64,000 bases of DNA from Albula goreensis. Lineage: Eukaryota; Chordata; Actinopteri; Albuliformes; Albulidae. Numbering within the stretch: the first letter of the stretch is position 1; each line of letters opens with the position of its first letter. This document shows, one piece after another, positions 18,901 through 63,665 of this stretch. Below the pieces are notes generated by a model. That model saw only the letters and a list, made by a program, of their open reading frames with translations, had not been told where the DNA came from and searched no databases. Location: contig CM040743.1 in NCBI GenBank assembly GCA_022829145.1, positions 899,501 through 963,500 on the forward strand, given 5' to 3'. The position numbers and the translations under genes were made by a program.

Positions 18901-21900
18901 TTAATGTAGTTACCTGTGCAGGTAGAGGGGAGTACAGAGTTAATATCGCTACCTGTACAGGTGCAGTATCCTCTGCAGGTTTAGGGGATTTTCGGAATAG
19001 TCCAGTGAACTTCCCTCCTTTTTTCTGAGTGAGGACGTGTCCGGGGTGGATGTTGGATAGAAAGAGAAAGGTGAAGTTGAAGGCTGTGCAGTCAGACACC
19101 TTTGTGTTATAGTTTATGCACCTGGTTTCAAACGCTGGTGTGTGGAGTAATGGCTGAACAGAAAGACTCACCTTTGTGTCGATGTCAGAGAGACTGTCAT
19201 TACTGGCTGAGAGTTCACCATATATGGATGCAATTTCCTAAAACAGACACTTTCATTAGCACGAGATTTTCACAGAACTATTGACCCATTTAAAGATGAG
19301 TGCAGCACAGTCTTTTCCGCTTCTGCACAGGTAAAGAACAGTATAGTTCAATATAGTTACCTTCAAAGAGTTAATATATTTACCTGTACAGGTGCAGTGT
19401 CCTCTGCAGGTTTTGGAGATTTTCGGAATAGTCCAGTGAACTTCGCCCCTTTTTTCTGAATGATGATGGGTCCGGGGTGGATGTTGGATAGAAAGAGTGA
19501 TGCAGAAATCAGACTGAACAGGCAGAAATCTTTTTGTTATAGTTCATGCCAGTGTTTCTCAAACTTTTTGGAGACACTGACCCATTTTTACCTCAATTTT
19601 TCTGGGGAGCCCCTTTATGTAAAACACTATGTGCCCAGTGTGGAAAAAATAACACACATGCTTGCCTATATCATTTGGCTACAAATAGGGAAATAAGACA
19701 ACCACAAAACATGTGAATTTATAAATTTTGGCTTGACATTTCAACTCGGCTAGCTGGCAATAGCAAATCTTAATGCAAATGGTACTTGTGGACACAATGA
19801 ATTACGTACTCTGTCAAATTGAAAAATGATTGATTGGTTGCCCTCAAATGTAGTCAAGAAACAACCCATAGTGTTAAGTTCAGATGTTTTTTGGTAGATT
19901 TGAAAACTAAGCAAATAGACGGGATCAGCACCAAAGCCATGACTCTCTGACATGTACCTATGGAGTGTATGTGCTTTCAAAAAATTCAAGAACAAGAATT
20001 TTTCACAGAACCCCAGTTTAAAAATCAGTCATGTATGCACCTGGTTTCAAACGCTGGTGTGTGGAGTAATGGCTGAACAGAAAGACTCACCTTTGTGTCG
20101 ATGTCAGAGAGACTGTCATTACTGGCTGAGAGTTCACCGTGTATGGATGCAATTTCCTAAAACAGACACTTCCATTAGCACGAGATTTTCACAGAACTAT
20201 TGACCCATTTAAAGATGAGTGCAGTATGTTGTTTATTCAGCTCCTGTGCAGTGTTAATATAATTACCTGAACAGATGAAGTACAGCACAGTGTTAATGCA
20301 GTTTCCTGTGCAAAGGGGGAGTTAGTGTTCATATATTTACCTGTACAGGTGCAGTGTCCTCTGCAGGTTTAGGGGATTTACGGAACAGGCCAGTGAACTT
20401 CCCTCCTTTCTCCTGAGAGAGAGAAATAAGGAGAGATGAGAGAAAGAAAGAGGAAGGAGTAGGTGTTGGTTTAGCAGAAACAGTTGGACAGAAACGCTGG
20501 TGTGTGGAGTAATGGCTGAACAGAAAGACTCACCTTTGTGTCGATGTCAGAGAGACTGTCATTACTGGCTGAGAGTTCACCATGTATGGATGCAATTTCC
20601 TAAAAGAGAAACTTCCATTAACAGTGAATTCTCATAAAAATTCAAAGCAGTGAGAAAGTGAGTCTGTGTTTAATATCAAGTCCCACGTCTTCCTCTCTCA
20701 TTACTACTTCAATCAAAAATGAAATCAAAGAAAAAAATAGAGGGTGGCAGAATGCATAGAAGGAAGTGTTTTTACAAATACTCAAGGAGATAAATGGACA
20801 TCTCTCTTAGCTGTGTCAAAAAAAACCTGTGTCAATGTAGCTACTTTGACAGGTAGTGCAGTATTGAGTTAATATACAGGTATATATAAAGTTATAGAAC
20901 AATACAGTGATAATATGGTCACCTGTGCAGGTATGTTGTGCAGCACAGTGTTAATGTAGTTACCTGTGCAGGTAGGTAGGGGGAGTACAGAGTTAATATT
21001 TACCTGTACAGGTGCAGTATCCTCTGCAGGTTTAGGGATTTTCGGAACAGGCCAGTGAACTTCCTCCTTTCTCCTGAGAGAGAGAAATAAGGAGAGATGA
21101 GAGAAAGAAAGAGGAAGGAGTAGGTGTTGGTTTAGCAGAAACAGTTGGACAGAAACGCTGGTGTGTGGAGTAATGGCTGAACAGAAAGACTCACCTTTGT
21201 GTCGATGTCAGAGAGACTGTCATTACTGGCTGAGAGTTCACCATGTATGGATGCAATTTCCTAAAAGAGAAACTTCCATTAACAGTGAATTCTCATAAAA
21301 ATTCAAAGCAGTGAGAAAGTGAGTCTGTGTTTAATATCAAGTCCCACGTCTTCCTCTCTCATTACTACTTCAATCAAAAATGAAATCAAAGAAAAACGGA
21401 GGGTGGCAGAATGCATAGAAGGAAGTGTTTTTACAAATACTCAAGGAGATAAATGGACATCTCTCTTAGCTGTGTCAAAAAAAACCTGTGTCAATGTAGC
21501 TACTTTGACAGGTAGTGCAGTATTGAGTTAATATACAGGTATATATAAAGTTATAGAACAATACAGTGATAATATGGTCACCTGTGCAGGTAAGAGTGCA
21601 GCACAGTGTTAATGTAGTTACCTGTGCAGGTAGAGGGGAGTACAGAGTTAATATCGCTACCTGTACAGGTGCAGTATCCTCTGCAGGTTTAGGGATTTTC
21701 GAATAGTCCAGTGAACTTCCCTCCTTTTTTCTGAGTGAGGACGTGTCCGGGGTGGATGTTGGATAGAAAGAGAAAGGGGAAGTTGAAGGCTGTGCAGTCA
21801 GACACCTTTGTGTTATAGTTTATGCACCTGGTTTCAAACGCTGGTGTGTGGAGTAATGGCTGAACAGAAAGACTCACCTTTGTGTCGATGTCAGAGAGAC

Positions 21901-24900
21901 TGTCATTACTGGCTGAGAGTTCACCATATATGGATGCAATTTCCTAAAACAGACACTTCCATTAGCACGAGATTTCCACAGAACTATTACCCATTTAAAG
22001 ATGAGTGCAGCACAGTCTTTTCCGCTTCTGCACAGGTAAAGAACAGTATAGTTCAATATAGTTACCTTCAAAGAGTTAATATATTTACCTGTACAGGTGC
22101 AGTGTCCTCTGCAGGTTTTGGAGATTTCGAATAGTCCAGTGAACTTCGCCCCTTTTTTCTGAATGATGATGGGTCCGGGGTGGATGTTGGATAGAAAGAG
22201 TGATGCAGAAATCAGACTGAACAGGCAGAAATCTTTTTGTTATAGTTCATGCCAGTGTTTCTCAAACTTTTTGGAGACACTGACCCATTTTTACCTCAAT
22301 TTTTCTGTGGAGCCCCTTTATATAAAACACTATGTGCCCAGTGTGGAAAAAATAACACACATGCTTGCCTATATCATTTGGCTACAAATAGGGAAATAAG
22401 ACAACCACAAAACACGTGAATTTATAAATTTTGGCTTGACATCTCAACTCGGCTAGCTGGCAATAGCAAATCATAATGCAAACAGTACTTGTGGACACAA
22501 TTAATTACATACTCTGTCAAATTGAAAAATGATTGATTGGTTGCTCTCAAATGTAGTCAAGAAACAACCCATAGTGTTAAGTTCAGATGTTTTTTGGTAG
22601 ATTTGAAAACTAAGCAAATAGACGGGATCAGCACCAAAGCCATGACGCTCTGACATGTACCTGTGGATTGTATGTGCTTTCAAAAAATTCAAGAACAAGA
22701 ATTTTTCACAGAACCCCAGTTTAAAAATCAGTCATGTATGCACCTGGTTTCAAACGCTGGTGTGTGGAGTAATGGCTGAACAGAAAGACTCACCTTTGTG
22801 TCGATGTCAGAGAGACTGTCATTACTGGCTGAGAGTTCACCATGTATGGATGCAATTTCCTAAAACAGACACTTTCATTAGCATGAGATTTTCACAGAAC
22901 TATTACCCATTTAAAGATGAGTGCAGTATGTTGTTTATTCAGCTCCTGTGCAGTGTTAATATAATTACCTGAACAGATGAAGTACAGCACAGTGTTAATG
23001 CAGTTTCCTGTGCAGGTAGGGGGGAGTACAGTGTTCATATATTTACCTGTACAGGTGCAGTGTCCTCTGCAGGTTTAGGGGATTTTCTGAACAGGCCAGT
23101 GAACTTCCCTCCTTTCTCCTGAGAGAGTGAAAGTAAGAGGGCTATAAAACTACTACTACTACAGCACAGTGTTAATGTAGGAACCTTTGCAGTCTTCTAC
23201 CCCACACACACCCAGCTCTGTCTGACCTGCTTGTTTTCCGGAGGCTCCAGGCAAATGTCTGTGGAGGTATGTATCTGAGGAAGCTCTTCACTGTGGGAAT
23301 CAGTGCTGCTCACACTGCTGATCTGGAAAAATGGACGAGCATGAGCTAATACAGAACAGTATCACCTTCATCATGAACATATAGCTCTACTAGCATGAGC
23401 TAATATAGCACAGTATCGCCTTCCTCTTGAACATACAGGTCTACTAGCATGCGCTAAAATAGAACAGTATCACCTTCATGAACATACAGCTGTATTAGCA
23501 TGAGCTAATATAGTCCAGTATCACCTTCATCATGAACATACAGCTCTACTAGCATGAGCTAATATAGTCCAGTATCACCTTCATCATGAACATACAGCTC
23601 TACTAGCATGAGCTAATATAGTCCAGTATCACCTTCATCAAGAACAAACAGCTCTACTAGCATGAGCTAATATAGTCCAGTATCACCTTCATCATGAACT
23701 TACAGCTCTACTAGCATGAGCTAATATAGTCCAGTATCACCTTCATCATGAACATACAGCTCTACTAGCATGAGCTAATATAGTCCATTATCACCTTCAT
23801 CATGAACATACAGCTCTACTAGCATGAGCTAATCAATCCAGTATCACCTTCATCATGAACTTACAGCTCTACTAGCATGAGCTAATATAGTCCAGTATCA
23901 CCTTCATCATGAACATACAGCTCTACTAGCACGAGGTTTCATAAGGGTTCACTGCAATTATCAGTACTCATTTTTAACTGTAATTTGTTTTTAACCTAGG
24001 TTGTTGCTGTTTTAATTTTCTCCTTTACTAGATTAGTCTTTAGGGGGGTCCTGATCTATTCTGTCACCTTTGGCACTTGGGACTTTACCCCTTTCTCGGG
24101 TTATCTTTGAACTTTTTTTGTACCATTCATATGCACTTTGCCTTGTAAGTCGCTCTGGACAAGAGCGTCTAACAAATGCCTTTAATGTAATGTAATGTAA
24201 TGTATGAGGTAACATAGAACAGTATGACCTTTATCATGAACATACAGTTCTACTAGCATGAGCTAACATAGACCAGTATCATCTGAACAATGTTGCACTC
24301 ATCATCCTCATCCTCATCCTCATCCTCATCATCAACATCAACATCAGCAGACTGAAACTGGCATGAGATAATGCAAACCAAAATCATCAAATCTGAAACA
24401 CACCTTTTTAATGTCTGGAATGTTTCTCTCCCCCTCAGGTTTAGTGTCTGTTATATAACTCTGGAACATACAGAATGATCTACTATATTAAACAGAAAAG
24501 GAATAACAGAAAGAAGAAACATAATTTCATTCAGCCCAAATAAAAAATAAATGCATAAATCAAACCGATTAACTCCAATTCAAATAAAAGTCTTACAGTG
24601 AAGGTGGTGGCCCTTTCTTTAGGAATCTTCCAGAAAATTCCACCGAACACTCCTTTATCCTGAGAGAGAGGTAAAGGAGTGAATATCTGGGTGAAGGCCC
24701 ACCTCCATTCAACTGTGCACCACATTTCAGTAAAGTTTTATCACTGTGAGTTAGTGTAGTTTCACTCTATACAGTTAAAAGTCTTTAAAACTCCTGTATC
24801 ACGCACATACTCCCATATCATGCACATACTCCCGTATCACACACCCCCTTAAAAATTTATTGTTACAACTGCTGCACACTCACACTCTTCGCACAGACCT

Positions 24901-26832
24901 GTCGGTGTTCAGGTTCACTCTGGTCCTCTCTGCACTCTGATTGGGTCACTTCCCTGTTAATCTAAGTTTGACAGTGAAAAAAGCTATTAGTACGAAATAA
25001 ATGTTTTACTAACAGATAACAATGACCTCACATTAGTACAGCACCACAGACATAACAAAGTCCCCCAAACTTCATCATGCTGTGGAGATGCAAGACCTCT
25101 AATATTACTGAATATCCCTCCTTTCTCCTGAAAGAGAAACAGATTAACAGTCTAACAGAAACAGCTGGACAGAAACTCTGATGTGTAGAGAATAATGGCT
25201 GAACAGAGAGACTCACCTTTGTGTTGTTGTCAGAGAGGCTGTCATTGCTGGCTGAGAGTTCACTGTGTGTAGAAAGATTGTCCTGAGAGAGGGACAGAGA
25301 AACTGATCAGATCCAAGCACAGACAGGTCACTGGTAGTGACTGAGGTGTAGAATCACTTACCTGTGCAGGTGTGGGACCTCCAGAAGGTTTGGGAGTCTT
25401 TCTGAACTTTCCGGTGAACATCCCTCCTTTCTCCTAGAGGGCCACGAGAGGGTTAGCTTAAGCCTTTACCGAAGGCTCAAAACTGACACTGATAGAATCT
25501 TTGTACCATTTATTAAATATTAGTTATTAAATCATTTAGGTAAAAGCAAGCTGACCTTTTTGTCGATATCAGAGAGACTGTCATTGCTCACTGATAGTTT
25601 ACTGTGTACAGATTCATTTTCCTGAGAAAAACAAGTAATTAATATGTACTCAGACTACAGTACAGTGTTCATACAGTTATCAGCATAGGAAAAGTACAAC
25701 AGAGTGTTATATAGTCACCTGTGCAGGTAGACTGTGCTCAGCAGGTTTAGGGGCTCGTCTGAACCTTCCACTTAGTATCCCTCCTTTTTCCTGTGAGAGA
25801 AACAGATTAACAGTCTAACAGAAACAGCTGGACAGAAACTCTGATGTGTAGAGAATAATGGCTGAACAGAGAAACTGACCTTTGTGTTTTTGTCAGAGAG
25901 GCTGTCATTGCTGGCTGAGAGTTCACTGTGTGTAGAAAGATTGTCCTGAGAGAGGGACAGAGGAGTTAGTTTTGAGTATTGCAGAAATACACTGGTGCAC
26001 ACACAGATTATTGTCCAATGAAGTCTAGTGACCTAATCAGAACATAGTACTGTTATATAGCTACCTGTAGAGGTAGAGCGGGTGTGGGCTTGGTTCATAC
26101 TGAAGGTAAGGATGTACTTGGTTATTACTTGGATGAGCGATCTCATTGAAAACTCATCTTCTACTGGAAGTGACAATTGATACCCCAGGGACAGTGCCAG
26201 AACTGGTGTTACAACTGATCAAATTCAGCACATCCAATAAATGATGAGCATCATCTCTATGACCTTACTAAACACTTGCTATAGCAGTGTCATCATCATT
26301 ATCATAAACTTTCAGCAACTGGGTGCAGATTTCAGAACCTCAAAACACTTCTTACAACTGCTGCACACTCATCACACAGACCTGTTGGTTTGCAGGTTCT
26401 TCCCTCTGGTCCTCCATACCTTCTGATTGGCTCTCTTCCCCATCCTTAGTACAGAAATAGCAGTGTTTTACTAACAAACAACTATTACCTCTAATATTAA
26501 AATAGCACTACAGGGACAACAATGACCTCTAATATTAGCATAGCACTACAGGGACAACGGTGACTGTTATGCAGCCCTGTTACAGGTACAATACCTGTGT
26601 TGTAGGTTTCATTGTTCTGAATTTTTGCTTCATTTCCTTCAAAATTCCTGAGCTCTGAAAGACAGATGGTACATTGATCACCTTTAAAAATATTCCTTAA
26701 GACACAGTCTCTGTACCTGGCAGTGTCTTTATGCTATTAATACATGCTAAGACGGACACAGGCACACAGAAGTTGTGTTACCTCTTTTTTTTTCTTCCCT
26801 TTTACTTCTGCTGGTGACATGCACTCCTCCAT
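13409..26832 (-). CDS. APOL-like gene A with repeated N-terminal exon modules
   Basis: Start exon 26782-26832 codes MEECMSPAEVKGKKKKE. Next come 26595-26654, 26382-26444, a module block (25217-25945), 24899-24961, 24597-24659, 24404-24460, 23227-23322, the main module array (17818-23118), 17401-17475, 17169-17234, 16963-17025, 16789-16863, 16619-16658, 15922-15973, 15252-15666 and 13409-14776. If three 70-nt exons are counted at the usual 72 nt, the chain is about 1374 residues. The C-terminal 590 or so hold the apolipoprotein L core: two hydrophobic stretches (VGSVTTITGLILAPFTFGSS and TTGVMSALFLALDIFFLAKD) between amphipathic helices. A Glu/Lys-rich tail then ends PKAPPPVPHRKR...PLSI. No signal peptide is seen, so the protein is probably intracellular and membrane-associated. 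APOL proteins in general insert into membranes; the role of this one is unknown. As assembled, exons 22089-22158, 21661-21730 and 21004-21073 break the frame. Confidence 0.8.
16879..16902. repeat. (CA)n microsatellite
   Basis: About twelve CA units in a gene A intron. The same intron of gene B has a longer CA tract at 35668-35708, so the site predates the A/B split. Confidence 0.9.
19550..20030. mobile_element. hAT-like non-autonomous insertion, copy 1
   Basis: A 481-bp segment begins CAGTGTTTCTCAAACTTTTT and ends with a degenerate inverted match (complement: 'tttttaaactggggttctg'). It interrupts an intron whose sibling copies read 'gttatagtttatgcacctgg'. The flanks 'gttcatgc' and 'atgtatgc' look like a decayed 8-bp target duplication of 'gtttatgc', as expected for hAT elements. 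Confidence 0.65.
22253..22733. mobile_element. hAT-like non-autonomous insertion, copy 2
   Basis: Same 481-bp length, ends and flanks as the copy at 19550-20030. It is not an independent insertion: it was carried along by the 2.7-kb duplication. Confidence 0.65.
23340..23935. repeat. 54-bp minisatellite
   Basis: About eleven units of roughly 54 bp containing 'catgaacatacagctctact' and 'agcatgagctaatatag', in the gene A intron between exons 23227-23322 and 24404-24460. Confidence 0.93.
24010..24206 (+). mobile_element. SINE tail
   Basis: Ends 'gtaagtcgctctggacaaga', 'gcgtctaacaaatgccttta' and (ATGTA)n, the typical 3' part of a fish tRNA-derived SINE. The tRNA head is not recognisable. It interrupts the 54-bp minisatellite region. 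Confidence 0.65.
25080..25126 (-). pseudogene. Decayed type-1 module exon
   Basis: After an acceptor ('ctttcag') the sequence reads EKGGIFSNIRGLASPQ. The beginning fits a type-1 module, but the FRKTPKP part and an in-phase donor are lost. It sits where a type-1 exon would be expected, before the type-2 exon 25217-25282. Confidence 0.6.
25217..25945 (-). other. Gene A upstream module block
   Basis: Exons 25880-25945, 25719-25790, 25556-25621, 25362-25433 and 25217-25282 code three type-2 (DNLSTHSELSASNDSLSD type) and two type-1 modules (EKGGMFTGKFRKTPKP and EKGGILSGRFRRAPKP). They resemble gene B modules more than the main gene A array. The block lies between two related exons, 26382-26444 (EGMEDQREEPANQQ) and 24899-24961 (SECREDQSEPEHRQ), whose single gene B counterpart is 41794-41859. 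Confidence 0.8.
26062..26110 (-). pseudogene. Decayed type-1 module exon
   Basis: A donor-proximal remnant reads KPTPALPLQ before 'gtagct', matching the end of a type-1 exon. The acceptor side is gone. Confidence 0.5.
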
Positions 26833-32814: not shown

Positions 32815-46933
<14,119 letters not shown>

Positions 46934-48240: not shown

Positions 48241-50367
48241 GGGTGAGTGCAAGGTTTCGGTCGACATGGTATTTGCCTGTCCGCTCACTCGTTCTCCCCG
48301 TCCGTTTAGCGAGGGTTATGATTGATCGTAACGCCTGACAACAGCCAGGTCATGAAATCTTCTATTATAATATCAACCAAAAACTTTTCAATACCGACAT
48401 AAAATATCACACAGTCATACTTAAAGATTTATTTGCTTTATATTATTTAAAGTCAAAACATCGCAGCCGGTTTTTGATTCGCCGCAGCAAAGTGGTACAC
48501 AAACAGCAGGGCCTCCACGCCTTTGCTTAGTCCGGGGTCAGATCGCTGCTCCTCATTCGCATTTTTGCATCCCGTGCACATTCTTTCGCCACGTGCCTTT
48601 CTCTGGATTTCCCACACCACAGACTACAGAGCCCGAGAATAACCCCGACAAACTACTATTACAAGACCGTTAGGCGCCATCACGGCTGTACTAATGTCCT
48701 TGTGATTTAGTAAGCTTTCTCGGGTAAATATTTTTCTACGATTTTTTGTACAGAAATATACCAATGTTTATTTTTTTGAAAATCAACACTGCTCATTTTA
48801 TTGTACAATAAAATATAAACTTTATTGCATGTATTCCAAACCACATACACCTTTAATCAGTACTACATAACCACAGAATCCCCACCTATTCTGAAGGCAT
48901 AATTTAAAATGTAAAAAAGTCAAGTTAAAAACATAATATATTAATCACTCAATCGATCAAAGAAAATGTTAAGATTGTTAGATGCAGACATTGTCTATAA
49001 GATAACAAGCCTGTTATTAACAAGCCTTATTGCTTATGTTCATAATTACACTTATAGTTTCAGCACAGGGTACTGGAGCCCTGCTGAGAGATTTGAGATC
49101 ATCAGACAGAATAAAAAGAAAAAACTATCACCTTGGAGTTTCACAGAAACTAAACTGTGCCACATGTTAATGCAGTATTTTAAATATTATTGGACCATTG
49201 CACAGTGCCCCAAAATACAAACAGTACATAGTGTGAACCACTCAAAGAGGAGCAGCTGTGTGTTTTTAATCCCTCTCTGTTCTGAAACAGTGGAATTTCA
49301 GCCCTTTTAATCCCAGTCCAAACAGTTTCCCAAAACTCAAAACACTCCAGTAACAGAAAGCATAAAATGAAATGTGGTGAAAATCCCAAAAGGAATAGTA
49401 TCAATGAAAAGAGATCCCCACCCAAATATCAGGGACATAACACCCAAGCTTATTTATATTTAAAGAGGGTAAAATCTTACATATAGAATGTATAAGGAAA
49501 TTATGACATTCATGAAAGTAGTTCAAGGCAGGAATAGGCACTTCAAAGTAGCATTCAAATGTTTTGTTTTCCACAGTGTGTACATAAAAGTGGACACTAA
49601 ATATCTATGCCCTGTTCAAAGAAACACCACCCTTACACAAGCCTGAGGGCCTTTCGACAGGGAGAGTCACAAAAAATGTCACACAAAGCATTGTGGGAGG
49701 TGAAGTCCAGAGCTGAGTGTGTGTGTGAAAAGCTTTGAACTCATTTCTCCTGTCATCCTCTTTGTGAGATGTCCTATAGCACTATGCATATCTTTCAAAA
49801 ACAAAGCAGCAACAGGTGATTCACCCGCAGTATGACTCATGTGATAACAGACAAGGACTGTGGAAAAGTGAGTTCAGATGACATCAAAGGAAGATTGTGG
49901 AAATGTGGGATATAGGTGACCGTAAAGGAAGATTGTGGAAATGTGGGATATAGGTGACCGTAAAGGAAGATTGTGGAAATGTGGGATATAGGTGACAGTA
50001 AAGGAAGACTGTAGGAGCATGGGCTCAGATGAGGGCAGAGAGGCATTATGGGAAAGCAAGTTCTGATAAAAGCAGAGGAGGAAAGTAAGCAACAGCATTC
50101 AATGGCAGACAGCTATGCAGGAAAAGTGAGTCGAGATGAAAACAGAAGCTTATTATGGGACAGCAGAAAGGTTGACTCAGGGAAAGGGAGTTTAAATTAT
50201 TGACGAGAAGGATTGTGGGAAAGTGAATTTAAATTATGGCAGTAGATTGTAAAAAGTGAGTTGAGATGAAAAGGATTGTGAGGTTTATGGGAAAGTGAAG
50301 GAAGGAGAAAAGAGGACTCTGGGAAAGTGAGTTTATTATGGCAGGGAAAGAGTTTAGGAGAGTGAGC
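48241..50367. other. Intergenic region between genes B and C
   Basis: No gene recognised. Includes a 38-bp minisatellite at about 49870-50010 (units with 'gaagattgtggaaatgtggg') and diverged continuations to about 50340. The stop of gene C is at the right border, so its 3' UTR probably lies in this repetitive part. Confidence 0.5.
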
Positions 50368-51187
50368 TCAGATGTTCCTGCTGGCTTCTTGCAGCTCCTC
50401 GCGGATGGTGTTGAGCTCCACTAGGCCCTCGTGTAGCTGCTCCGCCACCTCCCGTATCTTAGCTGCAAACTCGGACTTGGCGCCCTTCTTGAGCTCACGC
50501 GAGTCCTTTGCCACAAAGTAGATGTCCATGCCGACAAAGAGGCCTGTGAGCACGCCAGTGGCCAGGCTGGCGATTTGGACAGCCCGGGCGGCAGTGCTCC
50601 CGGCCACGTTAGCGATCTGGACCACGCGCATGATCTCTCCAGTGTTGATGAGAATAGCCTTGCTTGCCATGGCACCATCCTCATAGATGTTGGTGAGAGC
50701 TGGGAAGTCCTTGTTGTAGGCATGGTCCTTCATCTTCACCACATCATACTTGCGCAGGTTCTCAATGCCCTGCTTGATGAACTTCATGCACTTGCTGATG
50801 TCGGCCATTTTAGCCTGGTAGTCTTCCACAATGCGCTCCACTTTTTTACGGTCCAGGGAGTTGTTGACCGTGTTGGAGATACCAGCAGAGGCTGAGGTCA
50901 GCCCGCCTGCTGTGGCCACACCTAGCCCCACTGCTGTGACGATCAGTGAAGTTCCCATGGTGACAGGCGCTAGCGCCAACCCGGCGATGGTTGCCACGCC
51001 ACCCACAGCACTGGTGGAGCCGCCTGTGATCGCTGCGATCTTGGTCCTCTTGTTGAAGCGGTCGAGACCATCAGCGATGGCATTAAGATCAATCACGTGC
51101 TGCCACAAGCCCTCCGCCCGCTCCGTAAAGAGTTTATGAAACACACGGATGCCCTTCTGCACCTTGTCTGCAGTCACCGCAAAAGCC
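50368..51187 (-). other. Gene C: APOL core in a single exon
   Basis: 820 nt after the acceptor 'ctctcgcag'; 272 residues and stop. Unlike genes A and B there is no intron in the core and no Glu/Lys tail. The linker exons upstream (40 nt and 55 nt) keep the phases of A and B (40 and 52 nt), which shows common descent of the 3' gene structure. Confidence 0.9.
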
Positions 51188-54100
51188 CTGCGAGAGACAA
51201 GAGATATTAACACTGCATGGAAGGAGAGAGAGAAAAAGGGGCTATATGCAGTCCAGCCATGAAGATGATGGCTCAGGACAGGTGAGGAAGTTACTTTTGC
51301 ACATTATGGATCCATGTGAGGGTGACACGGTGATTTCATCATCCTTTTCATGCTGAAATAGTTTACGGTTTCATCAACAGAATATCCTGTTGAACTGGAT
51401 CTTTGATGTAGGCACTCTGATCATATTTGACCAAATACCTGAATTAAGACTAACTTTTTGATGTAAGTTTCAGTCAATATATTTTTCCCATTCAGCAATA
51501 ATTTCATTACCAAACAGAAAACAGAATTTCACATTTGACATGTCTTGGCTGGGGCCCATGGCAACATGTTCCATTAGACAGAATGGTGCATGGAAAGTGT
51601 GGATAGCCATTACACATCCTGGCTCCCAAAACAGGGAGGGCCTCTCAGGAAGGCCTCTGTATTGATGGTTAGTGTATAGTCTATGGAAATCGGGTCTTAC
51701 TTTGCTTCTTCTTTCTCAGTTAAATCTTCATCATCTGGAGGCAGATCTTCCCATTCTGAGAGGCAGAGACAGAGAGAGGGTCAATTAGAGCAACCAGCTC
51801 ATAAGACACTCATTCAAACCTAAACTCCTGAGGGATGCCGCTTGTGTGTGTGTGTGTGTGTGTTAGAGTGTCTGTGTGAGAGTGTTGATATATTTCACTC
51901 ACGTTCCACTGTGTTCCACCACTCCATCAGGCCTTCACTGTCCTGCAGGAAAGGAGAGACATTTGATGTACAAACATGTAACAGCAGATTACATATATGA
52001 GTGTAACAGAGCGTATTTGAAAGTAAGTGTGTATTTGAGTGTAACTGTACATAATACACACTGTTACTCCAAAATGCACACTAATACATACAGTTACATA
52101 CACTAACACAATAATCATACAAACTACATTGTTACTCTCAAATACATATTAATACACACTATTTTCCAAAATAAACACTAGTTTGGATTAGGGTGCAAGA
52201 CTACTACCTCCTCCTCCTCCTCCTCTTCCTCTTGCTCTTGGTCTCCAGCTGACCTTGCATCCATTGCCCTGGGTTGAATCGCCCCTGGTCTGGGAAACAA
52301 GGACTTTGTCCTTTCACTGTCCTGAAGGCAGATGGAGAGAGGAGGGTCTGACACCAGGGACACCAAGCCACCAGGGACACCACCACCCCCACCCCCCATT
52401 CGATGAGAATGACATCATTTGCTGTCACAAACTTTCTACATTTAACACAATTTCTGGAAGATAAAAAGCACCCACAAATGGCAGTGGAGAAATGATAGCA
52501 ACTGACACCAAACCATTTCAATTCAAAACACCTAATTTCACAGAAATGCTTTTGGTCAAAATAGCACTACGGTCAACTACCACACAATCATTAAATGTCA
52601 GAAAATCAATCAGTTTTCAGACAGTCTGATTTGTCACATAATTGACAGCTGTTCAGCATGACTGCTTAACCATCACAGGTTGTAAGGGACTGGAAATTCA
52701 AACACACTCAGAATTCAGGGCCTTTGTTCACCCTGGGAAGGTGTATCGTCAGTGTGTGTGAATGGTAAACCACAGGTCACACACGGTGGAACTTGCACAG
52801 CAGGTTGGGGCACATATCTACTCATTTGCTCAGCAGAGCTGCCTCACTTTGGCAGAGATATCCCCTCACATTGCTGGTGTTTTGTTTATTTACAGTTAGT
52901 AAATTGTTGTTAGGCTGTCCCCCCCCATACACTTTCCCTGTTCATTCTTTCTGCCATTTTTCTGAACACCTCACCTTTTTGTTGACAATACACTTTTTTC
53001 ATGTACTGCCTTTTTATTCAAAGATGAAAGAGCAAAGCAAGCCAACAAAAAAACTTCTTGTAAAGAAACCAAAGTCATTTAAGAGCAGAAGCCCTAATGT
53101 GGTACTTCACTCTGACCTGCAACCTCACCTACTCAGTGTTACTGACAATTCCCCTTTTAAAAGATGAACATCCCTACAAATTCCTTTTTTCTCACTATTT
53201 GTGCAAGTGCATCTGCGAGTGTGTATGTGTGTGTGCGCGCGAGTGTGAATGTGTGTGTGTGTAGGAGTGTGTGTGCGTGTGTATGTGTGGGAGTGTGTGT
53301 GTGTGTGTGTGCTTGTGTGTGTGAGTGTGTGCGTGTGTGTGTGCAGGAGTGTGTGAGTGTGCGTGTGTGTGTGAGTGTGTGTGTGTGTGTGTGTGCAGGA
53401 GTGTGTGAGTGTGCTTGTGTGTGTGAGTGTGTGTGCGTGTGTGTGTGCAGGAGTGTGTGAGTGTGTGTGTGTGTGTGCAGGAGTGTGCTTGTGTGCTTGT
53501 GTGTGTGTGTGTGTGTGTGTGCAGGAGTGTGTGAGTGTGCTTGTGTGTGTGTGTTCGTGTGTGTGTGCAGGAGTGTGTGCGTGTGCGTGGGACTGAGTGT
53601 GAGAGCTATACCTCTGTAGGCTCTGACGGACTGCTGTCTGTGCCCATAGAGGAATCCTCATTCCTGAGCCCTGTCAGCATCTTAGTCTGGATCAGCGAGA
53701 GAGGCATTACAATCACTCAGCACCCATTACAATCACTCAGCACCCAATACAATCACTCAGCACCCAATACAATCACTCAGCACCCATTACAATCACTCAG
53801 CACCCAATACAATCACTCAGCACCCATTACAATCACTCAGCACCCAATACAATCACTCAGCACCCAATACAATCACTCAGCACCCATTACAATCACTCAG
53901 CACCCAATACAATCACTCAGCACCCATTACAATCACTCAGCACCCAATACAATCACTCAGCACCCATTACAGTCACTCAGCACCCAATACAATCACTCAG
54001 CACCCATCAGAATCACTCAGCACCCAATACAATCACTCAGCACCCAATACAATCACTCAGCACCCATTACAGTCACTCAGCACCCAATACAATCACTCAG

Positions 54101-57100
54101 CACCCATTACAATCACTCAGCACCCAATGCAATCACTCAGCACCCAATACAATCACTCAGCACCCAATACAATCACTCAGCACCCAATACAATCACTCAG
54201 CACCCAATACAATCACTCAGCACCCAATGCAATCACTCAGCACCCAATACAATCACTCAGCACCCAATGCAGTCACTCAGCACCCAATACAGTCACTCAG
54301 CACCCAATACAATCACTCAGCACCCAATGCAGTCACTCAGCACCCAATACAGTCACCTGTACCCAGCACAGTCACCCGCACCCAGCACAGTCTCCTGCAT
54401 CCAACACAGTCTCACACTCAACAAACAGATGCACATGCTGACACAGACACTACCTTGGCTCCCTTGCGTGGCAGGAAGGGATTCCTGGCTTTTTTCCCTT
54501 TCTTCAGCTGCGGGGGAGAAGATAATGGGACAAAGAAAAAGCAAGTGTTACTGTATTACTAAGGCTTCACAACAGCACTGAGCTTTTCTTATACTATTAT
54601 TACAGTGTGGACAATTGGATAATCACCCCATATAGGCCCCATTTACCTACAGTCTACAGAGTATCCAGCACTGCATCAAGCCCATTTACCTTCAGTCTAC
54701 AGAGTATCCAGCACTGCATCAAGCCCATTTACCTACAGTCTACAGAGTATCCAGCACTGCATCAAGCCCATTTACCTACAGTCTACAGAGTATCCAGCAC
54801 TGCATTAAGCCCATTTAACTACAGTCTACAGAGTATCCAGCACTGCATCAAGCCCATTTACCTACAGTCTACAGAGTATCCAGCACTGCATCAAGCCCAT
54901 TTACCTACAGTCTACAGAGTATCCAGCACTGCATCAAGCCCATTTACCTACAGTCTACAGAGTATCCAGCACTGCATCAAGCCCATTTACCTACAGTCTA
55001 CAGAGTATCCAGCACTGCATCAAGCCCATTTACCGACAGTCTACAGAGTATCCAGCACTGCATCAAGCCCATTTACCTACAGTCTACAGAGTATCCAGCA
55101 CTGCATCAAGCCCATTTACCTTCAGTCTACAGATTATCCAGCACTGCATCAAGCCCATTTACCTACAGCCTACAGAGTATCCAGCACTGCATCAAGCCCA
55201 TTTACCTACAGTCTACAGAGTATCCAGCACTGCATCAAGCCCATTTACCTACAGTCTACAGAGTATCCAGCACTGCATCAAGCCCATTTACCTTCAGTCT
55301 TTACAGAGTATCCAGCACTGCATCAAGCCCATTTACCTTCAGTCTACAGAGTATCCAGCACTGCATCAAGCCCATTTACCTTCAGTCTACAGAGTATCCA
55401 GCACTGCATCAAGCCCATTTACCTTCAGTCTACAGAGTATCCAGCACTGCATCAAGCCCATTTACCTACAGTCTACAGAGTATCCAGCACTGCATCAAGC
55501 CCATTTACCTTCAGTCTACAGAGTATCCAGCACTGCATCAAGCCCATTTACCTACAGTCTACAGAGTATCCAGCACTGCATCAAGCCCATTTACCTACAG
55601 TCTACAGAGTATCCAGCACTGCATCAAGCCCATTTACCTACAGTCTACAGAGTATCCAGCACTGCATCAAGCCCATTTACCTACAGTCTACAGAGTATCC
55701 AGCACTGCATCAAGCCCATTTACCTACAGTCTACAGAGTATCCAGCACTGCATCAAGCCCATTTACCTTCAGTCTACAGAGTATCCAGCACTGCATCAAA
55801 CCCATTTACCTTCAGTCTACAGAGTATCCAGCACTGCATCAAGCCCATTTACCTACAGTCTACAGAGTATCCAGCACTGCATCAAGCCCATTTACCTAGT
55901 CTACAGAGTATCCAGCACTGCATCAAGCCCATTTACCTACAGTCTACAGAGTATCCAGCACTGGATCAAGCCCATTTACCTACAGTCTACAGAGTATCCA
56001 GCACTGCATCAAGCCCATTTACCTACAGTCTACAGAGTATCCAGCACTGCATCAAGCCCATTTACCTACAGTCTACAGAGTATCCAGCACTGCATCAAGC
56101 CCATTTACCTACAGTCTACAGAGTATCCAGCACTGCATCAAGCCCATTTACCTACAGTCTACAGAGTATCCAGCACTGCATCAAGCCCATTTACCTACAG
56201 TCTACAGAGTATCCAGCACTGCATCAAGCCCATTTACCTACAGTCTACAGAGTATCCAGCACTGCATCAAGCCCATTTACCTACAGTTTACAGGGTATCC
56301 AGCACTGCATCAAGCCCATTTACCTACAGTCTACAGAGTATCCAGCACTGCATCAAACCCATTTACCTACAGTCTACAGAGTATCCAGCACTGCATCAAG
56401 CCCATTTACCTACAGTCTACAGAGGTATCCAGCACTGCATCAAGCCCATTTACCTACAGTCTACAGAGTATCCAGCACTGCATCAAGCCCATTTACCTAC
56501 AGTCTACAGAGTATCCAGCACTGCATCAAGCCCATTTACCTACAGTCTACAGAGTATCCAGCACTGCATCAAGTCCATTTACCTACAGTCTACAGAGTAT
56601 CCAGCACTGCATCAAGCCCATTTACCTTTACAGTCTACAGGTATCCAGCACTGCATCAAGCCCATTTACCTCCAGTCTACAGAGTATCCAGCACTGCATC
56701 AAGCCCATTTACCTACAGCGTACAGAGTATCCAGCACTGCATCAAGCCCATTTACCTACAGCATACAGAGTATCCAGCACTGCATCAAGCCCATTTACCT
56801 ACAGTCTACAGAGTATCCAGCACTGCATCAAGCCCATTTACCTACAGTCTACAGAGTATCCAGCACTGCACCTTGTACCCAGGGTACAAGGGTTTCTGCC
56901 TCTACTAAATCACCTGTCAAACTGTTCTAAATATTGCTAACTCTTTGTGTTTAAGTATGTTTGATGATATCAATTTACCCTCGACTACTTTCCATAGTTC
57001 ACCACTTGTACTAAGGTACATGACTGGGACCCCTGAGGCTGGCGGTTCAAGCCCCAGTCCAGCCACAGCAACAACACCACTGCTGTTGGGCCCTTGAGCA

Positions 57101-60100
57101 AGCCCCACATTGCTCCCAGGGGGGATTGGCCCTTGGTTAGCCCAATCAACTGTCAGTCGCTTTGGATAAAAGCGTCAGCTAAATGACTGTAATGTAATGT
57201 AATGTTTATGAATTTAAAGACAGAGAGAAGGAGAGAGAGAGAGAAAGAGATAATATATACAACTTTGGGGACTTTAGGGATGTCCTCCTTCTCTTTTTCT
57301 GAGTGTTCATCTTCTCCTTTATCCTGGAAATAAGAACACATATTGGATAAATATAGTGTCAGAGGAATTTATATATTTACCATACATATCTTGCAATTAT
57401 CCAAATACACACACGCACACGCACGCACGCACGCACACACACACACACCCACCTGGCCTTTGAGAAGCAGAGATTCATATGATGGGGGCTGATCTTCACT
57501 TTCCTGAAACACAAATAGAGCAACATTACACATCTACAATATCCCACTCCTGTGTGTGTGTGTGTCTGTATGAGTGTATGAATGCACACAGATGTTTGTG
57601 TATATTTACCATACATATATAATAACAATCCAGATACACACACACCTGGCCTCTGAGGAGCACAGTTTCATATGATGGGGGCTGATATTCACTGTCCTGA
57701 AACACAAATAGAGCAACATCACACATCTACAATATCCCACTCCTGTGTGCGTCTGTTTATTTCCATATTAGTAAGACTGGGTGAGAATACAGACCTGTGT
57801 TGGTTGTTTTGATTGCTGCACACTTCCTATCTCTGTGGCTGGGGCTTCGTCTAATCTGTACTCCTGCACCAATGCAACAAAACACAGTGACAGAAAAACA
57901 AACAAAAAAAACATCAACACTCAGAAAACCCACTGACAGACAACAATACACAAATTGTTCAATACATACACTCATACACAAATAGCAACACACAGACAGG
58001 CAGGCAGGCAGACAGAGGTGAAGGGATAAACTGACACACACCTGCTTGTGTTTTGGCTGATCAACACTGGCAGGTTTCTCTTCAGAATCAGAGTCCTGCT
58101 CCATCTCCTGGAACAAAATGAGCAAATTACACTCTCTCCCTGAACCTGTATTATACCTTACAGTATCATCACTATCCCCCATTCAATTACAGTAATACTC
58201 CCCTTACAGCAACGCAATAATCCCCATAGAGTAACACAATAATCCCTTTACAGCAACACAATAATCCCCATAGAGTAACACAATAATCCCCTTACAGCAA
58301 CACAATAATCCCCATAGAGTAACATGATAATCTCCATAGAGTAACACAATAATCCCTTTACAGCAACGCAATAATCCCCATAGAGTAACACAATAATCCC
58401 TTTACAGCAACGCAATAATCCCCATAGAGTAACATGAATGCAATAATCCCCATAGAGTAACACAATAATCCCCATAAAGTAACATGATAATCTCCATAGA
58501 GTAACACAATAATCCCCTAAAGTAATATGACAAACCCCTGCAGTAACCCAAGCCCCTGAGGGAATAATTGCATGTGTGTGTGTGTGTGTGTGTGTATGCG
58601 TACCTCTGTGTTTGTAAGTGTATGCAGGTATATGTGTGTTTGTGTGTGTTTGTATGAGTGTTAGAGTGAGTGTAAAGCAGGCTTACTTTGGCTGCAGAGC
58701 GGAATGGGTTGATCTTTGACATGGCTCCTACCACTGCATTCTGAGGGACAGAACAGCAATAGCTCATTTACACAACAGCCTACCAACACGCAAACACACA
58801 CAGGCAACACACACAGAAATACAAATACAGCAAACCCACAAACAGACACGCTCATACACAAATAGCAAAACGCTGGCAGACAGATAGAGGTGAAGGGATA
58901 AACTGACACACACCTGCTTGTGTTTTGGCTGTTCAACACTGGCAGGTTTCTCTTCAGAATCAGAGTCCTTGCTCCATCTCCTGGAACAAAATGAGCAATT
59001 ACACTCTCTCCCTGAACCTGTATTATACCTTACAGTATCATCACTATCCCCCATTCAATAACAGTAATACTCCCCTTACAGCAACGCAATAATCCCCATA
59101 GAGTAACACAATAATCCCCTTACAGCAACACAATAATCCCCATAGAGTAACACAATAATCCCCATAGAGTAACACAATAATCCCTTTACAGCAACACAAT
59201 AATCCCCATAGAGTAACACAATAATCCCTTTACAGCAACGCAATAATCTCCATAGAGTAACATGATAATCTCCATAGAGTGACATGATAATCTCCATAGA
59301 GTAACATGATAATCCCCATAGAGTAACACAATAATCCCCTAAAGTAATATGACAAACCCCTGCAGTAACCCAAGCCCCTGAGGGAATAATTGCGTGTGTG
59401 TGTGTGTATGCGTATGAGTACCTCTGTGTTTGTAAGTGTATGCAGGTATATGTGTGTTTGTGTGTGTTTGTATGAGTGTTAGAGTGAGTGTAAAGCAGGC
59501 TTACTTTGGCTGCAGAGCGGAATGGGTTGATCTTTGACATGGCTCCTACTACTGCATTCTGAGGGACAGAACAGCAATAGCTCATTTACACAACAGCCTA
59601 CCAACACGCAAACACACACAGGCAACACACACAGAAATACAAATACAGCAAACCCACAGACAGACACGCTCATACACAAATAGCAAAATGCTGGCAGACA
59701 GATAGAGGTGAAGGGATAAACTGACACACACCTGCTTGTGTTTTGGCTGATCAACACTGGCAGGTTTCTCTTCAGAATCAGAGTCCTGCTCCTTCTCCTG
59801 GAACAAAATGAGCAATTACACTCTCTCCCTGAACCTGTATTATACCTTACAGTATCATGACTATCCCCCATTCAATAACAGTAATACTCCCCTTACAGCA
59901 ATGCAATAATCCCCATAGAGTAACACAATAATCCCTTTACAGCAACACAATAATCCCCATAGAGTAACATGATAATCCCCATAGAGTAACACAATAATCC
60001 CTTTACAGCAACACAATAATCCCCATAGAGTAACACAATAATCCCCATAGAGTAACACAATAATCCCCTAAAGTAATATGACAAACCCCTGCAGTAACCC

Positions 60101-60117
60101 AAGCCCCTGAGGGAATA

Positions 60118-60177
<60 letters not shown>

Positions 60178-60289
60178 AGAACATATTGTGTGTGCTTATG
60201 TGAATAAGTGCATGTTTCATGAGTCTATGTTTATATGACAGTGTGTGTGTGTGTGTACGCATGCCTGTGTGTTTGTAAGTGTATGCAGG

Positions 60290-60333
<44 letters not shown>

Positions 60334-61416
60334 CAAGCCTGTGTGTTTGTAAGTGTATGCAGGTATATATCTGTGTGTGTGTGTGTGTGTGTGTGTTGTG
60401 TTTGTATGAGTGTTAGAGTGAGTGTAAAGCAGGCTTACTTTGGCTGCAGAGCGGAATGGGTTGATCTTTGACATGGCTCCTACCACTGCATTCTGAGGGA
60501 CAGAACAGCAATAGCTCATTTACACAACAGCCTACCAACACGCAAACACACACAGGCAACACACACAGAAATACAAATACAGCAAACCCACAAACAGACA
60601 CGCTCATACACAAATAGCAAAATGCTGGCAGACAGATAGAGGTGAAGGGATAAACTGACACACACCTGCTTGTGTTTTGGCTGATCAACACTGGCAGGTT
60701 TCTCTTCAGAATCAGAGTCCTGCTCCTTCTCCTGGAACAAAATGAGCAAATTACACTCTCTCCCTGAACCTGTATTATACCTTACAGTATCATCACCATC
60801 CCCCATTCAATAACAGTAATACTAATAATCCCCATAGAGTAACACAATAATCCCCTTACAGCAATGCAATAATCCCCTTATAATAGAGTAACACAATAAC
60901 ATGATAATCCCCATAGAGTAACATGATAATCCCCATAGAGTAACACAAAATCCCCATAGAGTAACACAATAATCCCCATAGAGTAACATGATAATCCCCA
61001 TAGAGTAACATGATAATCCCCATAGAGTAACATGATAATCCCCATAGAGTAACACAATAATCCCCATAGAGTAACATAATAATCCCCATAGAGTAACACA
61101 ATAATCCCCTAAAGTAATATGACAAACCCCTGCAGTAACCCAAGGCCATTAAATAACAGTAATACTCCCCTTACAGCAGCACAATGATCCCCATTCACTA
61201 ACAGAATTATCCAAATGGAGTAAAATAACAAATCTCCATATAGTAACAGGATAATCTCAGTTACAGTAACAATATAAATTCCCCTTGCAGTACCATAATA
61301 ATCCCCATATAGTAACACAAAACCCCTAGGGGATAATTGTGTGTGTGTGAATGAGAACATATTGTTTGTGCTTATGTGAATAAGTGCATGTTTCATGAGT
61401 CTACGTTTATATGACA

Positions 61417-61447
<31 letters not shown>

Positions 61448-63665
61448 CATGCCTGTGTGTTTGTAAGTGTATGCAGGTATATATCTGTGTGTGTGTGTGT
61501 GTGTGTGTGTTTGTATGAGTGTTAGAGTGAGTGTAAAGCAGGCTTACTTTGGCTGCAGAGCGGAATGGGTTGATCTTTGATATGGCTCCTACTACTGCAT
61601 TCTGAGGGACAGAACAGCAATAGCTCATTTACACAACAGCCTACCAACACGCAAACACACACAGGCAACACAAACAGAAATACAAATACAGCAAACCCAC
61701 AGACAGACACGCTCATACACAAATAGCAAAATGCTGGCAGACAGATAGAGGTGAAGGGATAAACTGACACACACCTGCTTGTGTTTTGGCTGATCAACAC
61801 TGGCAGCTTTCTCTTCAGAATCAGAGTCCTGCTCCTTCTCCTGGAACAGGATTAGAAATTACACTCTCTCCCTGAACCTGTATTATACCTTACAGTATCA
61901 TCACCATCCCCCATTCAATAACAGTAATACTCCCCTTACAGCAACACAATAATCCCCATAGAGTAACACAATAATCCCCTTACAGCAACACAATAATCCC
62001 CATAGAGTAACACAATAATCCCCTTACAGCAACACAATAATCCCCATAGAGTAACACAATAATCCCCTTACAGCAACACAATAATCCCCATAGAGTAACA
62101 TGATAATCCCCATAGAGTAACACAATAATCCCCTAAAGTAATATGACAAACCCCTGCAGTAACCCAAGCCCCTGAGGGAATAATTGTTTGTGTGTGTGTG
62201 TATGTGTGTGTGTGTGTAAGTGCATGTTTCATGAGTCGATGTTTATATGACAGTGTGTGTGTATGCATGCCTGTGTGTTTGTAAGTGTATGCAGGTATAT
62301 GTGTTTGTGTGTGTTTGTATGAGTGTTAGAGTGAGTGTAAAGCAGGCTTACTTTGGCTGCAGAGCGGAATGGGTTGATCTTTGACATGGCTCCTACCACT
62401 GCATTCTGAGGGACAGAACAGCAATAGCTCATTTACACAACAGCCTACCAACACGCAAACACACACAGGCAACACACACAGAAATACAAATACAGCAAAC
62501 CCACAGACAGACACGCTCATACACAAATAGCAAAACGCTGGCAGACAGATAGAGGTGAAGGGATAAACTGACACACACCTGCTTGTGTTTTGGCTGTTCA
62601 ACACTGGCAGCTTTCTCTTCAGAATCAGAGTCCTGCTCCTTCTCCTGGAACAGGATTAGAAATTACACTCTCTCCCTGCGACTGTAATAATAACCTCTTA
62701 CAGTAACAGTGATAATCCCCTCTACTATCATATAATAGTCCCAATGAAGGATATGGATTTTATATAAAATAATAGTCCCAATGAAGGATATGGATCTTGG
62801 CCACATCAATCCAGCAGAGGGGCTCAGTCACACTCCAGCAGAGAGGCTCAGTCACACTCCAGCAGAGAGGCTCAGTCACACTCCAGCAGAGAGGCTTTCC
62901 AGCAGAGGGGCTCAGTCACACTCCAGCAGAGAGGCTCAGTCACACTCCAGCAGAGGGGCTCAGTCACACTCCAGCAGAGGGGCTCAGTCACACTCCAGCA
63001 GAGAGGCTCAGTCACACTCCAGCAGAGGGGCTCTTGCATTTTGTATTACTAGAGTGACAGGGAGTCTACAGCAGTTGTGGGGATCAGTGCGTACCCCACT
63101 TTACATCAGGTGCAATTAGAAAGGACTGCCATACCTGGGTACCTGAGCGAAAAGGATTCTTCAGGATGGAATTCATCACTCCATTCTGCGACAGGTGAGA
63201 CAGAGAGAGATATTAGTGCACTCCATTCTATGACAGGTGAGACAGAGAGAGATATTAGTGCACTCCATTCTATGACAGGTGAGACAGAGAGAGAGATATT
63301 AGTGCACTCCATTCTATGACAGGTGAGACAGAGAGAGATATTAGTGCACTCCATTCTATGACAGGTGAGACAGAGAGAGATATTAGTGCACTCCATTCTA
63401 TGACAGGTGAGACAGAGAGAGATATTAGTGCACTCCATTCTATGACAGGTGAGACAGAGAGAGATATTAGTGCACTCCATTCTATGACAGGTGAGACAGG
63501 CAGAGATATTAGTGCACAGCATACAGTAGCCCTTGGTCTGGTGTGCTTGCTGAGATTAAAATGGGTGTGGAGTAGATAAGGACTCACCTGCTTGGGTTTG
63601 GAATGGCGGGCTGTAGGTGGGGAGTGTTCACCTGTGTCGGATCCTGACTCTGTTTTATCTCTGTC
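50368..63665 (-). CDS. APOL-like gene C with NPF-motif exon array (5' partial)
   Basis: Exons in transcript order: 63588-63665, 63135-63185 (LKNPFRS), then alternating acidic and NPF exons (58042-62644), 57795-57863, 57646-57696 and 57453-57503 (both QPPSYE), 57264-57323, 54454-54507 (ARNPFLPRK), 53612-53686, 52208-52321 (ends in a Glu run), 51903-51942 ([10 protein letters not shown]), 51701-51755 ([17 protein letters not shown]) and 50368-51187. The last exon holds the whole APOL core: [20 protein letters not shown], hydrophobic [20 protein letters not shown] and [20 protein letters not shown], ending [10 protein letters not shown]. The true start lies beyond 64000. NPF is a known EH-domain ligand and PPxY a known WW-domain ligand, so links to endocytic adaptors and NEDD4-type ligases are plausible inferences. 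One acidic exon (58914-58980) has an extra base that breaks the frame. Confidence 0.8.
52785..53110 (+). repeat. Dispersed repeat copy 2
   Basis: Partner of 29705-30050, in a gene C intron. It contains the short frame [15 protein letters not shown] after 'tattcaaag'. Confidence 0.55.
53215..53595. repeat. GT-rich low-complexity tract
   Basis: Imperfect (GT)n with regular 'gtgcaggagtgtgtgagtgt' insertions, forming a higher-order repeat. It gives false Cys/Val and Thr/His frames. Confidence 0.95.
53706..54355. repeat. 20-bp minisatellite
   Basis: About 32 units of 'aatcactcagcacccaatac', with the variants 'cattac' and 'caatgc'. It lies in the gene C intron upstream of exon 53612-53686; the long frame through it is an artefact. 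Confidence 0.97.
54635..56870. repeat. 43-bp minisatellite, about 52 copies
   Basis: Highly regular 43-bp units with 'agcccatttacctacagtct' and 'acagagtatccagcactgc'. On the transcribed (minus) strand each unit contains 'ctgtaggtaaat', an acceptor-like AG directly followed by a donor-like GT. It fills most of the intron between exons 54454-54507 and 57264-57323. Confidence 0.97.
57005..57206 (+). mobile_element. tRNA-derived SINE
   Basis: B-box 'ggcggttcaagcccca', body 'cccaggggggattggcc', tail 'gctaaatgactgtaatgtaa' with TAATG repeats. Same family as 9072-9270. Confidence 0.8.
57453..57696 (-). other. Gene C duplicated PPSY exons
   Basis: Two 51-nt exons, 57646-57696 ([17 protein letters not shown]) and 57453-57503 ([17 protein letters not shown]), differ at a few positions and lie in introns that are also similar. 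PPxY is the canonical ligand of WW domains. Both exons are phase 0 on each side. Confidence 0.82.
58042..62644 (-). other. Gene C NPF / acidic exon array
   Basis: Six acidic exons (66 nt, [19 protein letters not shown] type): 62579-62644, 61775-61840, 60666-60731, 59732-59797, 58914-58980 (67 nt, frame broken) and 58042-58107. They alternate with five NPF exons (54 nt, [18 protein letters not shown] type): 62352-62405, 61548-61601, 60439-60492, 59505-59558 and 58687-58740. All intact exons are phase 0. Exon plus intron units of 0.8-1.1 kb are duplicated as a whole. Each intron carries the same 22-bp minisatellite ('ccccatagagtaacac...') and a GT tract, which vary in copy number. Confidence 0.88.
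58190..62135. repeat. 22-bp intronic minisatellites of gene C
   Basis: Five arrays of 'aataatccccatagagtaa' units at about 58190-58515, 59060-59350, 59880-60075, 60825-61110 and 61925-62135, one per duplicated exon-pair unit. Variants carry 'cccttacagcaac'. Neighbouring GT tracts reach about 50 bp (60121-60172). Confidence 0.93.
62805..63035. repeat. 24-bp minisatellite
   Basis: About nine units of 'ggctcagtcacactccagca' plus 'gaga' or 'gagg', in the gene C intron between exons 62579-62644 and 63135-63185. Confidence 0.94.
63186..63520. repeat. 42-bp minisatellite carrying a splice acceptor copy
   Basis: Eight units. On the minus strand each reads a pyrimidine run, 'cctgtcatag' and then 'aatggagtg', which copies the acceptor and first nine bases of NPF exon 63135-63185 (real acceptor 'cctgtcgcag'). 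Confidence 0.92.

Follow-up and report, generated by a model that had tools for sequence, protein, structure and literature searches.

Members of the apolipoprotein L (APOL) family, among them human APOL1-6 and mouse APOL7C, are reported to remodel or permeabilise intracellular membranes (PMC11726835), and a search of that review for the terms NPF, PPxY and fish found no mention of them. The gene considered here, gene C of Albula goreensis, is like these proteins in that its core fits PF05461 and has hydrophobic stretches, but unlike the described APOLs it has 565 N-terminal residues encoded by NPF, PPxY and charged mini-exons. How do APOL proteins find their target membranes? To our knowledge there is no clear account of this, and an APOL that in nature carries a multivalent tail of NPF and PPxY motifs, if real, would provide a directly testable link from the endocytic machinery (EH and WW proteins) to a membrane-remodelling or membrane-permeabilising domain.

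In yeast AP180, synaptojanin 1, epsin and stonin-2 an NPF-bearing tail is tied to a membrane-acting domain. Gene C resembles these NPF-repeat endocytic proteins in having several tail NPFs, and differs from them in that its folded part is the ApoL core, with one mini-exon per NPF and five tandem copies. The NPF counts given elsewhere are five for yeast AP180 proteins (PMC4194041) and three for SYNJ1 (PMC12808100). There is also a likeness to the EHD1 partners MICAL-L1, Rabenosyn-5 and Rab11-FIP2, both in the NPF peptides and in the proposed place in recycling; however, in contrast to partners with acidic NPF contexts, the acid in gene C comes only in the next exon. Among the matches listed in a search of the open-licence literature, no description of an arrangement of APOL with NPF or EH was found. 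Gene C is a variant of the known APOL family rather than a new kind of system, and the explanation that best accounts for it as a whole, though in our view its chances are about even, is that it specifies an intracellular APOL that binds multi-EH proteins by avidity.

Gene C and its mini-exons

The window, i.e., the whole stretch of 64,000 nucleotides that was analysed, is C3:899501-963500 of a 932-Mb genome, and the flank past its end was read as well (L009-L011). Gene C is an APOL gene on the minus strand, extending from about 66.44 kb to 50.37 kb with its modelled start beyond the window's end. Its exons come from a scan for splice sites and open frames followed by exon-by-exon scoring with textbook-like weights, and the predicted gene has 29 exons encoding 837 amino acids, the N-terminal part of phase-0 mini-exons being followed by the ApoL core. 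The model opens with a one-codon ATG exon (66439-66437), then EGGRYLSLEEEQEEREEQRNK, two basic/acidic cassette pairs and the NPF exons, one of which, at 64144-64094, is just beyond the window's end (in L009). The predicted protein starts MEGGRYLSLEEEQEE and, as judged by eye, is without a hydrophobic signal peptide.

Within the window, and all on the minus strand, the gene continues with a polar exon of net charge 0 (63588..63665), from the splice and open-frame scan, and an NPF exon (63135..63185), from the NPF listing and the exon scan. There follow units in which an acidic exon precedes an NPF exon, identified by exon scan and unit alignment: unit 1 (62579..62644 and 62352..62405), unit 2 (61775..61840 and 61548..61601), unit 3 (60666..60731 and 60439..60492), unit 4 (59732..59797 and 59505..59558) and unit 5, whose NPF exon is at 58687..58740. 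The acidic exon of unit 5 (58914..58980), recognised by unit alignment, is 67 nt long and frame-broken by one inserted base, which may reflect genuine decay or a mistake in the assembly, and it was left out of the model. A sixth acidic exon (58042..58107), found by exon scan and unit alignment, has no NPF partner after it.

Downstream of the array the exon scan gave an exon of 23 amino acids (57795..57863) and, with the gene model, two adjacent PPxY exons, both reading PPSY (57646..57696 and 57453..57503). Then come a possible exon of 20 amino acids (57264..57323), a diverged NPF exon (54454..54507), an exon of 25 amino acids (53612..53686) and an acidic exon with EEEEEEEE (52208..52321). These four, which lead from the array towards the core, have weak donors at 57264, 54454, 53612 and 52208 (scores -4.9, 4.4, 3.9 and 3.1), and the first of them, the 57323 exon, may not be real. 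Two exons lead directly to the core: one of 13 amino acids (51903..51942), with a similar exon, DVDALMAWWNTVE, before the core of the C22 APOL gene (L027), and one of 19 (51701..51755), from exon scores and the gene model. The core exon itself (50368..51187) includes the stop codon, which ends at 50368. Exon length is divisible by three in 26 of the 29 cases, the last three (40, 55 and 820 nt) sum in frame, and all exon joins of the model are in frame.

The original prediction had seven NPF motifs at least, on exons with 3' ends at 63135, 62352, 61548, 60439, 59505, 58687 and 54454, each on its own phase-0 exon upstream of a conserved apolipoprotein L core. All seven were found there on the minus strand, as open mini-exons with AG/GT borders and lengths divisible by three; the exon beyond the window brings the NPF count of the modelled N-terminal part to eight (seven inside the window); and the downstream core matches PF05461 at 9.3e-38 and 130.8 bits (cut-off 25.9), over positions 43-297 of 298. 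That the NPF exons are mostly paired with an acidic exon is borne out by the array units, with the reservation that the acidic exon before 58740 is out of frame through its 1-base insertion. The two PPxY motifs had been missed.

Do the NPF exons and the ApoL core belong to one gene? Probably they form one transcription unit, and we infer that they are spliced into one mRNA. Between 12 and 78 kb, CpG observed/expected is above 0.6 in 12 of 132 1-kb windows, at 27.5-29.5, 42.5-44, 47-49 and 65.5-68 kb. The last of these stretches coincides with the modelled start of gene C and the one at 47-49 kb, by eye, with the apparent start of gene B, while none of the CpG-rich windows lies from 49 to 65.5 kb, a distribution that supports a single unit without proving it. 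A high ratio is not always a start, since the 42.5-44 kb stretch sits in a tandem repeat within gene B. Two separate genes, NPF upstream and APOL downstream, are disfavoured both by the lack of a CpG-rich segment from 49 to 65.5 kb and by all exons being in frame. As to AATAAA or ATTAAA, there is none between 66439 and 58042, and there are three between the array and the core (58042 to 51187), at 57761, 53018 and 52890. A short isoform of gene C may arise from the ATG inside DSEGLMEWW.

The genome has 19 exon-level ApoL matches, the gene C core being the best. Hydrophobic Gly/Ala-rich stretches are common to this core and two paralogues, and membrane insertion by a hydrophobic hairpin is a prediction. 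Against the PDB the core (50371-51186) has no significant match; the only ones up to E = 1 are to the bacterial toxin components non-hemolytic enterotoxin L1 and MakE (E = 0.08, query residues 31-114). In the N-terminal part no Pfam family scores above its curated cut-off, PF14374 coming closest (22.4 bits vs 27), and the 7 and 55 pattern matches in viral and prokaryote contigs, respectively, include zero relatives.

Minisatellites occupy parts of the gene C introns, at 54638-56870 (43-bp unit, about 52 copies) and 53708-54356 (20-bp unit, about 32 copies), and give rise to long plus-strand open frames, of up to 703 amino acids, that were taken as meaningless. Upstream of gene C, beyond the window, C-type-lectin-like exons were seen by eye on the minus strand (L010, 1640-3140).

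Origin of the array and probable selection on the motif

NPF codons were listed in all frames for the window and all 28 loci read, and within gene C as modelled, from start to stop, the minus strand has just the eight NPF exons. The triplets at 50277 (minus, past the stop) and at 58241 and 59179 (plus, in minisatellites) and others in the window were not counted. Could such an array be a product of chance? This was rejected on two grounds. From 52001 to 66100, phase-0 symmetric exon candidates with good sites have 20 distinct acceptors on the minus strand vs 0 on the plus strand, and 40 first-order Markov controls for the same interval gave a mean of 0.4 and a maximum of 2 such candidates. Further, 20,000 shuffles of the 565 residues with their 8 NPFs never exceeded 2, and with near-identical units collapsed to one, which leaves 4 NPFs in 405 amino acids, the maximum in 200,000 shuffles was again 2.

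Compared in all ten pairs over about 330 bp, the five two-exon units, each an acidic exon, an intron and an NPF exon, show identities of 97.6-99.4%. There are 22-bp and other minisatellites between the units, and the array is read as having arisen by recent tandem duplication. Being recent near-identical copies, the five NPF exons count once, which makes for about four independent NPFs. All five matches of a genome search with the 18-residue NPF exon were on C3 and were the array copies, in a search that missed the known diverged NPF exons. A 201-bp DNA query had 61 matches: the five that extend over almost its entire length are the array, and the remaining 56 are confined to positions 127-201 of the query, a CA-repeat-rich intron stretch downstream of the NPF exon.

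A codon comparison was made with four diverged members of the nine NPF exons, namely 64144, 63185, one array copy and an exon on C17 (L015, VSGMKGMIQKVNPFRSTSQ), leaving out the four other array copies, the 54507 exon and the likely cognate in gene B, and dropping from the alignment one array codon and two C17 codons, all before the motif. Each of the five N-P-F-R-S columns has two or three codons and one residue, whereas all 12 remaining columns vary in residue, with at least two each, a pattern with a chance of 1/6188 if columns are exchangeable. As the exons were found by their NPF, the fair part of the comparison is R and S alone, for which 2/2 vs 0/12 has a chance of 1 in 91. The NPF motif is probably under selection. 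Over five exons its codons are AAT/AAC, CCA/CCC/CCT and TTT/TTC, the 54507 exon having kept NPF with other codons (AAT CCC TTC) and RS not, and among the five array copies divergence is higher at synonymous sites than at replacement sites (ratio 0.22, from few changes). Whole-exon pN/pS is 0.34 for 64144 vs 63185 (first codon left out) and an unremarkable 0.87, 0.53, 1.17 and 0.78 for the other four NPF-exon pairs. Such a mixture is expected if little besides NPFRS is constrained, and outside NPFRS the NPF exons appear to show little sign of constraint.

What if the motif is incidental, and the tail acts by its alternating charge, as a polyampholyte of basic and acidic mini-exons that serves membrane binding, spacing or condensation? 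We think this unlikely, though among the competing ideas it deserves the most attention. In two neighbouring APOL genes on the minus strand, gene A (17818-25945) and gene B (36925-40930), phase-0 mini-exons of a basic type (EKGGMFTGMFRKTPKPSGGPTPAQ) alternate with ones of an acidic type (DNLSTHSELSASNDSLSDNNTK) in long arrays. There are 8 well-scoring basic cassettes, K.GG..(T/S)G.FRK.PKP, in gene A and 13 in gene B, none with NPF, and 11 and 12 acidic ones, respectively; the profiles were built from some of the counted copies, and the counts are exclusive of weaker fragments. Ahead of the NPF exons in gene C there are two basic and two acidic cassettes, and most gene C exons from 64962 to 58042 alternate between about +3 and -3 in net charge. 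On C17 the paralogue C17_1 has its own array, of three basic/acidic copies without NPF, on the minus strand (L012 4913-6845, C17 31.1249-31.1268 Mb), in which exons of the QQKKGKKFKIHFLQRKDSK type, likely cognates of the 54507 exon, go with exons of the GVNDHTEKGADLFKGREGEEDEQTDMEEYRQ type. The cassettes also have pN/pS below 1, at 0.54 for the basic ones of genes B and C and 0.39 for the acidic ones of gene B, so that, with arrays in A and B that do without NPF, it may be the tail itself that is being conserved. However, a role for charge only would not keep N, P and F, and it is weakened by NPFRS having changed solely by synonymous substitution in four exons where the 12 other positions all changed residue.

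Improbable, to our minds, is the suggestion that minisatellite-driven unequal crossing over produced the array as a side effect, with most copies skipped or non-functional. It would accommodate the minisatellites between the units and the near-identity of these, the one frame-broken acidic copy, and the differences among the five intact acidic copies, which over all pairs add up to 14 replacements and 0 synonymous changes; but all five NPF copies still have an open frame and share fair splice sites (acceptor 9.4, donor 7.2), and the older NPF exons are synonymous-only over NPFRS.

Putative partners and a proposed role

The class I NPF tripeptide is present, in this one genome, in eight exons of gene C and one upstream of a C17 paralogue, and the same genome has 13 exon-level EH-domain matches above the cut-off, two of them with internal stops. 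Which EH proteins would such motifs suit? EHD1-type EH domains favour an NPF followed by acidic residues, and MICAL-L1 carries NPFEEEEED (PMC13282721). In gene C the residues after NPF are R-S-(A/G) or L-P, i.e., basic or neutral (as in NPFRSAAK), with no acidic residue directly following, and in six of the eight cases in the model an acidic or polar exon starts five residues past the NPF. The flanks of NPF and the number of motifs both influence EH binding (PMC3570524). A single EH-NPF contact of Eps15 is weak, at about 0.2-1.4 mM (PMC12370899), and a peptide with NPF failed to bind EPS15 when present once but bound it strongly in three copies (PMC12808100). Eight spaced NPFs with basic flanks would fit proteins of the Eps15 or intersectin type better than EHD1.

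Least probable in our estimation is that the motifs bind a non-EH receptor, e.g., COPII Sec23/24, as in SNAREs, or POLE2, with entry into ER exit or some other pathway: NPF is indeed recognised by several unrelated non-EH receptors, and in DONSON the Arg that precedes NPF is predicted to form a salt bridge to POLE2 (PMC12808100), where gene C has R, K or I. But that preceding residue is not essential for POLE2, the peptide was bound by EPS15 in its triple form but not in its single one (PMC12808100), and a receptor with more than one binding site suits eight spaced copies.

If gene C does specify an APOL that binds multi-EH proteins by avidity, its C-terminal ApoL core would lie in the membrane by a hydrophobic hairpin, and its N-terminal tail, long, charged and presumably disordered, would project to the cytosol, displaying up to eight NPFs, mostly about 40 residues apart, and two PPxY motifs. 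The repeated NPFs could engage the multi-EH proteins Eps15/Eps15R, intersectin or oligomeric EHDs by avidity, so that the membrane-active APOL would become concentrated on clathrin-coated or recycling membranes. PPxY is a ligand motif of WW domains, and the two PPSY copies are a possible link to WW-domain ubiquitin ligases, with NEDD4-type ligases as those that may be recruited. With cassettes in phase 0 the number of motifs is tunable without a break of frame, so that exon skipping and unit duplication might adjust NPF number with the frame intact, and gene C would then illustrate how duplication of phase-0 mini-exons tunes the valency of a motif scaffold.

A multivalent endocytic or recycling scaffold fused to a membrane-inserting domain had been proposed in the original prediction. 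In favour of it, the NPF exons do come before the core, probably in one unit, and NPFRS is synonymous-only. It has to be tempered by five of the eight NPFs being recent copies, by the arrays of genes A and B being without NPF, and by basic flanks that are unlike the preference of EHD1.

Relatives of gene C in the same genome

A tree of 12 ApoL cores groups A with B (95/87), and A + B with C17_2 (96/93), and gives no settled position to gene C, C17_1 or the C22 gene; the cores of gene C and C17_1 are 62% identical. On C17 the NPFRS exon has the C17_1 core on one side and the C17_2 core on the other; it is upstream of the latter and is assigned to C17_2 by position, across stretches of N and 2 kb of unread sequence. 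If that assignment holds, the NPFRS exon probably predates the separation of the gene copies, exchange of the exon between them being a possible alternative. Pairings made by eye, from sequence and order, point to a likely C17_1 cognate of the 54507 exon, KKGKKFKIHFLQRKDSK, in which NPF is absent, to a likely C17_1 cognate of a PPxY exon, HPFYENILLIGE, that reads HPFY in place of PPxY, and to a likely cognate in gene B that reads KLRPIKSTVQ (GSGILKEMKKKLRPIKSTVQ), also without NPF. PPxY was likewise not found in the C17_1 segment GTEKWNAEEHPFYENILLIGE.

Exon candidates upstream of the other APOL genes were scanned in L019, L020, L027, L028, C17 and genes A and B, the survey of paralogues not extending to those with ApoL matches on C16 or at C17:1.88 Mb. 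By eye, none of the NPF triplets in the C2 loci, L017, L018 and L021 is NPFRS-like, the triplets that C17 has within repeats and long open frames (L012, L016) were set aside, and the one NPF candidate in L027, TNPFIRFLLLTLAN, was taken as chance.

The neighbours of gene C have tails of their own. All 23 matches of a search with one basic cassette, a lower bound, are in the C3 cluster, and some cassette copies of gene A are apparently split between frames. Proline-rich exons read PILPPRPRPE in gene B, PLPPVPRSK on C22 and PPPPLPRP on C19, and PPPVPHRKR occurs near the C-terminus in genes A and B, all of which we take to be SH3-like motifs. With sister genes that carry cassette arrays and SH3-like exons, gene C appears to be the NPF-bearing form of a pattern general to the C3 APOL cluster. 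It is a longer step, and a doubtful one, to see in fish APOLs a class of endocytic adaptor-APOLs, cores with long tails of EH, WW and SH3 motifs in which the NPF exon predates the C3/C17 split; were it true, endosomal APOL action would begin as motif-driven recruitment, lost or replaced in mammals. Proline-rich exon candidates lie before the APOL cores on C22 (L027, 6716-8614) and C19 (L028, 2949-4180), and the APOL gene in L027 retains a WWNTVE exon.
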